Assembly: GCA_040877935.1 (NCBI GenBank)
Contig: JBBDNB010000001.1
Coordinates: forward strand, 62,001 to 126,000
Reading direction: 5' to 3'
Length of the DNA: 64,000 nucleotides
Origin: Chitinophagales bacterium
GTDB taxonomy: Bacteria > Bacteroidota > Bacteroidia > Chitinophagales > CAIOSU01
The notes under the pieces are model-generated. The model did no database searches. It worked only from the letters and a program-made list of their open reading frames with translations, and was not told where the DNA came from. The translations under genes and the position numbers were made by a program. Of this stretch, positions 45,197 through 57,376 are shown in pieces (positions within the stretch are counted from its first letter, which is position 1; every line of letters begins with the position of its first letter).

Positions 45197-46339
45197 CTAT
45201 TCTTGAAAATCATTCTGAATGGGCAGTTTAATAATAAAGCTACTGCCCCTTCCTTCTGTACTTTCTGTGCTAATTATACCACGATGGATTTCCACAATTT
45301 TCTTGCAGGTACTTAATCCCAATCCCGGACCGGGATATTTGTTGCGGTCTTCCAGTTTTTCAAACATTTGAAAAATGCGATCTGCATATTTTTGATTGAA
45401 ACCTATCCCGTTGTCTTTCAATACTATTTTTAAGACATCATCGCTTATATCGCTGCTGATTTTCACTTCTGCTATATCATTGTTGTTGAATTTTATTGCA
45501 TTGCTGAGCAATTCCCTAAAAAGCTCAGTAATTAATGTTGAATAACCGGGCCACTCCGGCAACTTGTTTTCTGCCTCAATGCGCAGATTTTTTCCTTCAG
45601 ATTTCAGCGAATTTACAGCTGTTTCCAGGCATTTTTCATAGGATAATTTGTGGATTGCATCATCTGAAATTTCAATACTCCCAAAATTTTCTAAGGCTTC
45701 AATTGTATTAATCATACGCTTCCCCTCTGCAACAATCATATCTAAGTTGTCCTCTCTTCTTTCTCAATCTGCTCAGTAAATTTCTTTTGAAAATGCTGTG
45801 TCATTAAGGTGATATTCCTGAGTGGTTCTTTCAAGTCATGCGAAGCAGAATAGGTCAATTGTTTCAGTAAATTATTGGAATTTTGAAGGTCATTTGCTTT
45901 TTCCAGTAGTTTCTTTTCGGCAAGTTCTCTTTGTTTAATCTCATTTTTCAATTCCAAATTTACCACAGCCATTTGTTGAGGGCTTGGAATTTTGAGTGCA
46001 GCCGGTATTTTAACAAAAAGTACTACTGGAAACCGAAGCAGTAAAAACTTTGGCAATGCCCTCAAAGGCATAAATAGGTTCCCATACCGAAACAATGGTC
46101 AACACATGCGTGATACCGCAGGAAAGAATAAACATAGCAAAAAGGTAAAAAATACCGCGAAATCGAATGTCTGATCTTTTGCGCAGGAAATAAACCAGCA
46201 AAAAAGGAATACTGAAATAGGCCAGGGCTATTAAGCCATCTCCTATTACATTCGTCCATAGGATATCCGGACGCCAAAAATAACAATGGCCGTGCGGCAT
46301 AAACTGACCCTGGAAGAAGTTGATGATTGATAACAGCAT
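45197..46339 (-). pseudogene. sensor histidine kinase with ethylene-receptor-type N-terminus, two frameshifts
   Basis: Three consecutive minus-strand frames make one kinase. Frame one (46339-46010) is an ethylene-receptor-like three-helix sensor: D34, Y41, I44, P45, C74 and H78 sit at a constant offset of nine from the ETR1 residues D25, Y32, I35, P36, C65 and H69 that bind copper and ethylene. One extra base in an A5 run (46015-46019) shifts to frame two (to 45742), with a coiled linker and the HisKA box SASHDLKEPLRN. One missing base at about 45751-45768 shifts to frame three (to 45197), which holds the HATPase domain (NAIKFNN, DNGIGF, GPGLGLS). Either a recent pseudogene or sequencing indels. 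If intact, it would be a membrane sensor kinase of about 380 aa. Confidence 0.82.
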
Positions 46340-46832: not shown

Positions 46833-47588
46833 ATGCGCTTATTTTACGCCTTTAAAAAATTACTCTTTTTAATCCCTGTGCTTTTGATCTGGCACTCCTG
46901 TAAGCACGAACCTATTGATATTGAAGGTTTTGACCCCAATGATCAAAATCCAACGGATACTACAGTTACGGATACTACCGATTCGGATTGTGATCCCGAT
47001 ACGGTTTATTTTGAAAATCATATTCTCCCCATTTTTATAGCCAACTGCTTAGGTTCTGGCTGCCACAATGCGCAGGATGCACAAGAAGGGGTTATTTTAG
47101 ACAATTATGATGATGTAATGAAAGAGGTTGACCCGGGAGATCCTAATGGTAGTAAATTATATGAATTGATTACAGAAAATGATGTAGATGATTTGTATGA
47201 CCGGATGCCTCCTTCTAACCTCCCTCGACTTTTGCCAGAAGAAATTGATAAAGTAAGAACCTGGATAGATCAGGGCGCTTTGAACAACTCCTGTGATGCT
47301 GGTTCTGTTGATTGCGACACAAGCAATGTGACTTATAGCAATGATATTGCATCTATTTTACAAAACAAAGGTTGTGTTGGATGTCATAATGGAGGGAATG
47401 CTTCAAATGGAAATGTGGACTTACGTTCCTATGCAAGTGTAAAAGCCGTAGCCGAAGATAATGACAGGCTTTTTGGAGCAATTAACCATGAACCCGGTTT
47501 TGAGCCTATGCCACAAAACCAATCAAAGTTAGATGACTGTATAATTAATACCATAAAAGCCTGGATTAACCAGGGACTCCAAGAATAA
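46833..47588 (+). CDS. lipoprotein with two cytochrome c-like haem motifs
   Basis: 251 aa. Lipobox WHSC (Cys23). Two related domains follow. The first has an unusual C-x4-C-H site (C72, C77, H78 in CLGSGCHN); the second has a normal CxxCH site (near residues 182-186, CVGCHNGG). Each is followed by an MPP or MPQ segment that could give the methionine ligand, and by a WI(D/N)QG ending like planctomycete-type cytochrome domains (PSCyt1). So a dihaem surface or periplasmic electron carrier is likely, though haem attachment at the C-x4-CH site is unproven. First gene of an operon with 47594, 47984 and 48545. Confidence 0.78.
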   Translation: MRLFYAFKKLLFLIPVLLIWHSCKHEPIDIEGFDPNDQNPTDTTVTDTTDSDCDPDTVYFENHILPIFIANCLGSGCHNAQDAQEGVILDNYDDVMKEVDPGDPNGSKLYELITENDVDDLYDRMPPSNLPRLLPEEIDKVRTWIDQGALNNSCDAGSVDCDTSNVTYSNDIASILQNKGCVGCHNGGNASNGNVDLRSYASVKAVAEDNDRLFGAINHEPGFEPMPQNQSKLDDCIINTIKAWINQGLQE

Positions 47589-47593
47589 CAATT

Positions 47594-47971
47594 ATGAATT
47601 ACAAAAATATTTTTTCGCTTATTTCAATTATTCTAACAGCTATGATTTATAGTGGCTGCTATTACGACAATGAGGAAGAGCTCTACGAAGAATATTATGC
47701 ATCCCAAACCTGCGATACTGTGGCTGTAAGTTATGATGAAAGCATACGCCCTATTATTGAGAGCTCATGTAATCTATCAGGATGTCATATTGCTGGAGGA
47801 GATGGCAATGGTATTTTCACAAATTATGCAGGAGTAAAGGCCAAGGTGGACAACGGCTCAATGATGAACAGAGTGGTTGATGTAAGAACAATGCCACCAA
47901 ATACGCAATTAAATTCTTGTCAAATCAGTTTAGTAAAAGCCTGGATAGACCAAGGCGCATTAAATAATTAA
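47594..47971 (+). CDS. lipoprotein with single C-x4-CH haem-like motif
   Basis: 125 aa. Lipobox YSGC (Cys22), then an acidic linker and one cytochrome-like domain with C59-x4-C64-H65 (CNLSGCH) and the ending VRTMPPNTQL and WIDQGALNN, nearly the same as the first domain of the protein encoded 5 bp upstream. The two genes look like products of domain duplication. Two further cysteines (QTCDT and NSCQI) flank the domain. Whether haem is bound depends on whether the maturation system accepts the wider spacing. Confidence 0.75.
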   Translation: MNYKNIFSLISIILTAMIYSGCYYDNEEELYEEYYASQTCDTVAVSYDESIRPIIESSCNLSGCHIAGGDGNGIFTNYAGVKAKVDNGSMMNRVVDVRTMPPNTQLNSCQISLVKAWIDQGALNN

Positions 47972-47983
47972 AAAACAAAAACT

Positions 47984-48535
47984 ATGAAAAATTTACTGGT
48001 TATCACGCTAAGCATTTTTTCTTTTTTTGCAATAAAAGCTGAAAAATACATTACCAAAACCGGGCACATCAGTTTTTACTCAGAGGCTCCTTTGGAAAAT
48101 ATTGAAGCCGACAACAACCAGGTCACCAGCATTTTGGATACCGAAAGCGGAGAAATGGTTTTTTCAGTTTTAATGAAGGGCTTTCAATTTGAAAAAGCAT
48201 TGATGCAGGAACATTTCAACGAAAAATACATTCATTCTGAAAAATATCCCAAATCTACTTTCCAGGGAAAAATTGTGGATTTAAGTGCTGTGGATTTTTC
48301 CAAAGACGGGGAATACGAAGTAGAGGTAGAAGGTACTTTGAATTTGCACGGGGAAAGCAAAACCATAAAATCTCCCGGTACTTTAGAGGTGAAAGATGGT
48401 GAAATTAATGCCAATGCAACATTTAACCTCACAGTAGCAGATTACAATATTGAAATACCATCTGTGGTGGAAGACAATATTGCAGACGTGGTAGAAGTGA
48501 GAGTGAAAATGAATTATAAGCCCTTCAAAAAATAA
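47984..48535 (+). CDS. YceI family periplasmic protein
   Basis: 183 aa with a signal peptide (1-19). The lipocalin-like YceI fold is shown by the TKTGHISFYSEAPLENIEADN opening (isoprenoid-binding strand), FEKALMQEHFNEKYIHSEKYP, STFQGKIVDLS and LNLHGESKTIKSPGT. YceI proteins bind polyisoprenoids such as quinones in the periplasm. Inside an operon with haem-motif lipoproteins it may carry a quinone-type or lipid cofactor for a redox pathway; that link is inference. A second YceI, a lipoprotein, is at 53679. Confidence 0.9.
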   Translation: MKNLLVITLSIFSFFAIKAEKYITKTGHISFYSEAPLENIEADNNQVTSILDTESGEMVFSVLMKGFQFEKALMQEHFNEKYIHSEKYPKSTFQGKIVDLSAVDFSKDGEYEVEVEGTLNLHGESKTIKSPGTLEVKDGEINANATFNLTVADYNIEIPSVVEDNIADVVEVRVKMNYKPFKK

Positions 48536-48544
48536 AATTATATC

Positions 48545-49495
48545 ATGCTTAAAAAGTCGATTGTACTGTTGTGCGTCCTGTCGTTGTTTTCAATGCCATT
48601 GTTTTCCCAGGAAGAGGAAGAAGATGATGATTTGATGGCCTTGCTTGAAGAAGAGGAAGAAGAAACCACCGATTATACCATTGCTACTTTTAAAACAGCA
48701 AGAATAATCAATAATCACTCCATAGAGACAGTAAATGAAGGGGTGTTGATGTTTATTATAGGACACCGATTTGGGCGTGTCAACAGTGGAATCAGGGAGT
48801 TTTTTGGAATTGACAATGCCACAATCCGTTTGGGTTTTGAATATGGTGTTACCGATAATTTCACCATAGGCTATGGGCGTAGTTCTTTCGAAAAAACCTA
48901 CGATGGTTTTCTCAAATACAAAATCCTGAGGCAAAGCACCGGAAAAAAACGAATGCCCATCACATTGACCGCATTTGCAGATGCCGCCATTAATAGTGCG
49001 CGATTTCCAGAACCGGATCGCGAAAACTATGCTACTTCCAGGTTTACTTATACCTATAGTTTGCTTATTGCCAGAAAATTCAATGAATATTTTTCCCTTC
49101 AATTATCGCCAACTATGATCCATAGAAATTTGGTAGCAACCAAGGCCGATAATAATTCCGTATTTGTAATGGGTGCAGGAGGCCGTGTGAAGTTGACGGG
49201 CAGCCTGGCTGTCAATATGGAATATTCCTGGATTATTCCCGGGCAAATCGAATCCAAACTCTATGGTGAAAATGTACAGGATGCATTTTCCGTTGGTATT
49301 GATTTAGAAACTGGCGGGCATATTTTCCAGTTGCATTTCACAAATTCCAGGGGCATGATCGAAAAAGCAGTGATGACCGAAACAACCGGTCGCTGGCTGA
49401 ATGGCGATATTCACTTTGGGTTCAATGTTACCAGGGTGTTTACCATTTACGACAAAAACAAAAGGAAAGCCAAGAAAGCGGAAAAGAAAATGTAG
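48545..49495 (+). CDS. DUF5777-type outer-membrane beta-barrel protein
   Basis: 316 aa. Signal peptide 1-21 (ending SMPLFSQ), a very acidic stretch (EEEEDDD and EEEEEETTD, about 22-41), then a beta-rich domain with strands such as EGVLMFIIGHRFGRVNSG, IRLGFEYGVTDNFTIGYGRS and DAFSVGIDLETGGHIFQLHF, as in the DUF5777 family. Ends with a basic Lys-rich tail (KNKRKAKKAEKKM). Last gene of the operon with haem-motif lipoproteins and YceI. The recurrent company of these families suggests a shared envelope redox or lipid function, but its nature is unknown. Confidence 0.82.
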   Translation: MLKKSIVLLCVLSLFSMPLFSQEEEEDDDLMALLEEEEEETTDYTIATFKTARIINNHSIETVNEGVLMFIIGHRFGRVNSGIREFFGIDNATIRLGFEYGVTDNFTIGYGRSSFEKTYDGFLKYKILRQSTGKKRMPITLTAFADAAINSARFPEPDRENYATSRFTYTYSLLIARKFNEYFSLQLSPTMIHRNLVATKADNNSVFVMGAGGRVKLTGSLAVNMEYSWIIPGQIESKLYGENVQDAFSVGIDLETGGHIFQLHFTNSRGMIEKAVMTETTGRWLNGDIHFGFNVTRVFTIYDKNKRKAKKAEKKM

Positions 49496-56143: not shown

Positions 56144-57376
56144 TTAATCCTTCAAAACAACCTGATTGCGCAGTAGGTCTTTCATGGTTTCCCGCTTTCT
56201 GATTAAGTGTGCTTTTCCATCTTTGATCAAAACCTCGGCAGGGCGGAACCGCGAATTGTAATTGGAGGCCATCATCATGCCATAGGCTCCGGCATTTTGA
56301 AAAGCCAGAATATCGCCCTCGCGAATTTCGTGAATTACACGATCCCAGGCAAAAGTATCTGTCTCGCAAATATAGCCGACTACGGTGTATATGCGGTCTT
56401 TTCCATTAGGGTTGGAAATATTGCTGATATGGTGATAAGCATCGTAAAACATAGGCCGGATCAAATGATTGAGACCTGAGTCCACTCCTGCAAAAACTGT
56501 GGCAGTAGTTTGTTTCAATACATTAACGGTTGCGAGAAATACACCGGCTTCGCTCACCAGAAATTTGCCGGGTTCAAACCAAAGCTCCAGGTCTTTTCCG
56601 TAGTCCTTACAAAAATCATTGAATCGCTGCGATAGTTGTGCGCCCAATTCATCTATATCAGTTCCGATATCTCCGGGTTTGTAGGGAATTTTGAAGCCGC
56701 TGCCGAAATCAATAAAGTCGAGATTTTTAAAATGTGCTGCTGCATCAAATAGCATTTCTGCCCCTTGCAAAAAGACATTCACATCAAGAATATCTGAGCC
56801 GGTGTGCATGTGCAATCCATTCACATGAATTCCTGTAGAAGCGACCAACCGCTCTACATGGCGCAATTGATAAATGGAAATGCCAAATTTGGAATCGATA
56901 TGTCCGGTAGAAATTTTTACATTTCCTCCTGCAAGAATATGTGGATTGATTCGGATACAAACAGGCACTGATCCACCAAAGTGATGCCCAAATTGCTCCA
57001 GAATAGAAGTGTTGTCAATATTGATCTGTACTCCTAATTCTACTGCTTCTTTGATTTCTTCAAATGAAATTCCATTCGGTGTATAGATGATGTCTTTGGG
57101 GTCATATCCCGCTTCCAGCCCAAGCCTTATTTCATTGATTGAAACGGTATCCAATCCCGAACCTTCATCTTTAAGTATCTTAAGGATATTAATATTCGAA
57201 AGTGCTTTACAGGCGTACTTAATCTTTACATTGCTTGCTGAAAAGGCCTTTGTGAGCTTTCTGTATTGCTCCTGAATTTTTTCGGCATGATAAACATAAA
57301 GCGGAGTATCAAATTCCGCAGCAACTTTCAATAAGTCTTTACCGCCCATTTGATAGCGGCCATTAACAATTTCCAT
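56144..57376 (-). CDS. lysA: diaminopimelate decarboxylase
   Basis: PLP enzyme making lysine from meso-diaminopimelate. The ATG at 57376 gives 410 aa; a TTG seven codons upstream lies inside the promoter box and is unlikely. The fold-III barrel shows YACKALSN (PLP lysine), HTGSD, DFGSGFKIPYKPG and the C-terminal CETDTFAWDR and GAYGMMMASNYNSR with catalytic Cys and substrate Tyr regions. Monocistronic as far as seen. asd at 12.5 kb supplies the same pathway. Confidence 0.96.
   Translation of the reverse strand: MEIVNGRYQMGGKDLLKVAAEFDTPLYVYHAEKIQEQYRKLTKAFSASNVKIKYACKALSNINILKILKDEGSGLDTVSINEIRLGLEAGYDPKDIIYTPNGISFEEIKEAVELGVQINIDNTSILEQFGHHFGGSVPVCIRINPHILAGGNVKISTGHIDSKFGISIYQLRHVERLVASTGIHVNGLHMHTGSDILDVNVFLQGAEMLFDAAAHFKNLDFIDFGSGFKIPYKPGDIGTDIDELGAQLSQRFNDFCKDYGKDLELWFEPGKFLVSEAGVFLATVNVLKQTTATVFAGVDSGLNHLIRPMFYDAYHHISNISNPNGKDRIYTVVGYICETDTFAWDRVIHEIREGDILAFQNAGAYGMMMASNYNSRFRPAEVLIKDGKAHLIRKRETMKDLLRNQVVLKD

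Follow-up and report, generated by a model that had tools for sequence, protein, structure and literature searches.

The window, the whole stretch of 64,000 nucleotides analysed here, carries on its minus strand, from 46339 down to 45197, what is probably a bacterial ETR1-type ethylene receptor gene that was inactivated recently, and signalling by the sensor has most likely ceased. By descent, its domains place it as a broken copy of the ETR1-type receptor kinases, and it is not a working member as assembled. Reading-frame analysis of the window resolved it into pieces A, B and C, which occupy two frames, as follows.

46013..46339, minus strand: piece A, three-helix ethylene-binding domain ETR1_N (Pfam PF25487, E 4.4e-32; AlphaFold2 helices; conserved residues)
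46013..46027, minus strand: first frame change, frame 0 to +1 (codon-score switch; homology limits)
45745..46027, minus strand: piece B, linker and phospho-acceptor helix (sub-threshold HisKA match, E 0.006; collinear with relatives; positive codon scores in frame +1)
45745..45768, minus strand: second frame change, +1 to frame 0 (piece B open to its stop, piece C open from 45763; codon-score switch)
45197..45763, minus strand: piece C, catalytic ATPase domain HATPase_c (PF02518, E 1.8e-22; collinear with relatives)

Piece A has a start and a stop of its own (ATG at 46339, in-frame stop at 46010-46012) and is 109 residues long. The open frame of piece B extends from 46095 down to 45742, with the stop at 45742-45744, and piece C terminates at the stop at 45197-45199. 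The first frame change falls directly after the last transmembrane helix and spans a 5-base homopolymer at 46015-46019, while the second sits inside the DHp (HisKA) domain.

Codon usage and the alignment with intact relatives agree on exactly two frame changes, at ~46013-46027 and ~45745-45768. With codon scores trained on 33,780 codons from the window's own contig, the best frame is 0 down to ~46030, +1 from ~46024 to 45755, and 0 again to the stop. The switches are sharp, near 46020 and near 45755. The codon scores show the same switches as the alignment, so the frame assignment has support besides homology. The three pieces are collinear end to end with the intact relatives and no block is missing (6-108, 110-186 and 193-381 in the relative L009). 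Homology to the relatives stops at residue 107 of piece A and starts at residue 24-25 of piece B. The two breaks cancel in frame, and the total length equals that of the relatives. This agreement is far beyond chance. The initial annotation had described the same coordinates and strand and a sensor kinase broken by two small frameshifts, which the domains, codon scores and alignment all bear out. Its finer placement of the breaks, in the A5 run and at 45751-45768, is compatible with the alignment, which locates each break only within about 15-25 bases.

Piece A (46339-46010) matched the Pfam ETR1_N profile at 110.7 bits against a cut-off of 27 bits, so the search against ethylene-binding profiles proposed in the initial annotation came out in favour of the sensor. 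The NCBIfam profile search with piece A gave zero matches, and none of the PDB chains searched by sequence matched the sensor domain. The HATPase_c match in piece C is clear. The HisKA match in piece B alone is sub-threshold because the second break cuts this domain; the H-box SASHDLKEPLR is whole in piece B, with its histidine at 45838-45840 on the minus strand. The kinase domains are thus present, yet they are split over two further frame pieces and do not share a single open frame with the sensor. The full protein could not be made from the gene as assembled, which would yield at most the sensor domain without the kinase.

All seven ethylene-binding residues of plant ETR1 are kept in piece A: D34, Y41, I44, P45, I71, C74 and H78. 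We take these to be the counterparts of D25, Y32, I35, P36, I62, C65 and H69 of ETR1, at a constant offset of nine, so that the copper-site residues Asp25, Cys65 and His69 and the four other binding residues are shared with the plant receptor. Six of them had been read correctly before, and I71 completes the set. The columns of the seven residues are almost invariant in 59 domain rows from the relatives. K97, presumably at the place of Lys91 in ETR1, is also nearly invariant in the domain alignment; Lys91 matters for binding in ETR1. The AlphaFold2 model of piece A (mean pLDDT 81) shows three transmembrane helices, as in ETR1-type receptors, at 24-54, 61-86 and 90-107, with D34 in helix 1, C74 and H78 in helix 2, and K97 in helix 3. 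In ETR1, Asp25, Cys65 and His69 form the copper site (PMC12643061), and the seven residues are required for ethylene binding in AtETR1 (PMC11819568). AzoEtr1 keeps the same seven residues and binds ethylene (PMC11819568). Judged from the sequence, the window gene is an ETR1-type ethylene-receptor sensor kinase by descent, with predicted copper and ethylene binding.

Just before helix 1, a PHGxCxxW motif is conserved in the bacterial ETR1_N domains (46274-46297, minus strand, in the window). Its Cys19 and Trp22 are found in 57 of the 59 domain rows. A role in a dimer disulphide or in copper delivery is possible. The motif belongs to the bacterial proteins; plant ETR1, with its different N-terminus, has no counterpart of it except one cysteine. 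GAF and receiver domains are further features of plant ETR1.

Ethylene receptors of bacteria are already a recognised class of protein, with SynEtr1 and AzoEtr1 as characterised examples. The novelty implied by the initial annotation is therefore not upheld, and the domain recurs across the phylum. AzoEtr1 of Azospirillum brasilense has, like the window gene, an N-terminal three-helix ETR1-type domain with the seven residues and a C-terminal histidine kinase, and it is accompanied by a predicted response regulator gene (PMC11819568). It differs in being intact, 525 aa long and equipped with a PAS domain, whereas the window gene has no PAS domain, is broken and lacks a regulator next to it. SynEtr1 of Synechocystis sp. 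PCC 6803 also combines an ethylene-binding domain with a histidine kinase and signals by phosphorelay, according to PMC11819568 and PMC6682694. Unlike the window gene, it is functional and is also a light receptor.

The intact relatives have the same simple layout and are 382-396 aa long. The closest comparison is with two genomes of the same family, G001 (G001:C13) and G006 (G006:C57), whose kinases of 390 aa and 387 aa consist of ETR1_N, HisKA and HATPase_c in the same order and at the same length as in the window gene, with 54-57% identity in the sensor. In contrast to the window gene, both are open frames, have different neighbours, and overlap by four bases a gene for a 144-residue CheY-like Response_reg protein. 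In the tree, built on a short alignment, the window domain groups with those of G001 and G006 and with a clade whose members belong to a single other family of the phylum (support 97/81). ETR1_N was found in 3 of 7 genomes of the family, above the cut-off in 16 of 299 genomes sampled from the order, and in 18 of 296 sampled from the phylum, a frequency of ~5-6% in the latter two samples. It is also present in many Pseudomonadota and one Acidobacteriota. G001 has a second, more distant ETR1_N kinase of 521 aa with adjoining response-regulator-like genes (L072, 5499-7064, on G001:C13). The ETR1_N sensor in the complete genome of Hankyongella ginsenosidimutans (L040, 4900-5300) is likewise split over two frames.

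No response regulator was found among the neighbouring genes examined beside the window gene; dnaJ, on the other strand, ends 57 bp from it. A similar regulator adjoins the kinase in some other relatives, not in all, and such linkage, common in near relatives and not universal, is not strictly defining for ETR1-type kinases. A partner might be encoded at another locus of the genome; the closest match away from the site is 46% identical and adjoins another kinase. Adjoining the broken gene, at 46833-49495 on the plus strand, is a cluster that encodes a cytochrome-c-like lipoprotein, a YceI protein, a further small secreted protein and a DUF5777 outer-membrane barrel. The scan for the Bacteroidota -7 promoter motif gave 67 matches against 83 expected.

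In the proposed mechanism, the three transmembrane helices would coordinate one Cu(I) via Asp34, Cys74 and His78, and ethylene would be bound there. The sensor would be joined directly to the HisKA/HATPase_c kinase. In the intact relatives, ethylene binding would alter autophosphorylation of the H-box histidine, and the phosphate would pass to the single-domain CheY-like response regulator from the next, overlapping gene. By analogy with SynEtr1 and AzoEtr1 (PMC11819568; PMC6682694), working relatives are expected to bind Cu(I) and ethylene and to change kinase output. In the window genome, with the frame broken twice and the regulator absent from the site, signalling through the sensor has most likely been lost. 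The statement of the initial annotation that this bacterium has, or recently had, such a sensor is right as to the kind of sensor; that it still has one is doubtful.

It is possible, though we doubt it, that the gene is intact in the cell as a working orphan ethylene-receptor kinase and that the two breaks are local artefacts of assembly or sequencing; the initial annotation had allowed for an assembly error. The sensor motifs are all preserved, as are nearly all of those in the kinase; one of the breaks is located at a homopolymer, the breaks offset each other in frame, and the overall length matches that of the relatives. Retention of 28 of 30 highly conserved positions would fit an error as well as a recent loss, and it agrees with the recent breakage proposed earlier. 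On the other hand, a frame-switch scan of 164 kb of the same contig, which recovered 57 of 62 simulated single-base deletions (92% detection), found ordinary gene junctions, the two changes in the window gene and no other clear single-gene break. With errors scattered at random, a second one would hit this 1.1-kb gene with a probability of ~0.7%. Five bases make a short run for an error of the homopolymer type, and no partner response regulator is present at the site. A recent real loss is favoured because two breaks fall in one gene, no other clear break occurs in 164 kb, and the partner regulator is missing; we consider a pseudogene about twice as probable as an assembly error. The frequency of breaks was judged on these 164 kb and on the 37 HATPase_c matches in the genome, among which short frames occur only in the window gene and one other, on contig C11. 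The other frame-switch candidates on the contig were read as ordinary neighbouring genes, except a short PIN-like remnant. Outside the window, G000:C1 encodes at 56319-56626 a short PIN-like protein with a small partner, and the two resemble a toxin-antitoxin remnant.

Whichever state the gene is in, the signal sensed by the domain may be a different one: copper as such, a small olefin or gas other than ethylene, or light in addition, as in SynEtr1. Residue conservation points to the copper site and not to the natural ligand, and SynEtr1 reportedly perceives light as well as ethylene (PMC11819568). This is unlikely, as the window gene retains all seven residues required for ethylene binding in AtETR1, and AzoEtr1, which has this set too, does bind ethylene (PMC11819568).

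A recoded or split but functional gene, with two ribosomal frame shifts or with the 109-residue sensor acting by itself in the membrane to bind copper and ethylene, with no kinase coupled to it, is highly improbable: piece A does contain the whole sensor domain between a start and a stop of its own, and a T5 run could allow P-site re-pairing, but programmed frameshifting was rejected since two opposite shifts are needed and the intact relatives are read in one frame, the canonical slippery heptamer is not seen at the second break, and we know of no conserved recoding element for ETR1_N kinases.

The window gene, probably a recent pseudogene, is an unremarkable representative of a known family, with a broken reading frame. 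For Bacteroidota-type bacteria, an assignment based on gene content and on the relatives in the tree, it provides a further clear example of such a kinase, albeit a broken one. The patchy presence of the domain in the family, together with the broken copy, suggests a trait that is easily gained and lost. The kinases of G001 and G006, intact and with paired response regulators, would be suitable starting points for studying ethylene sensing in this group.
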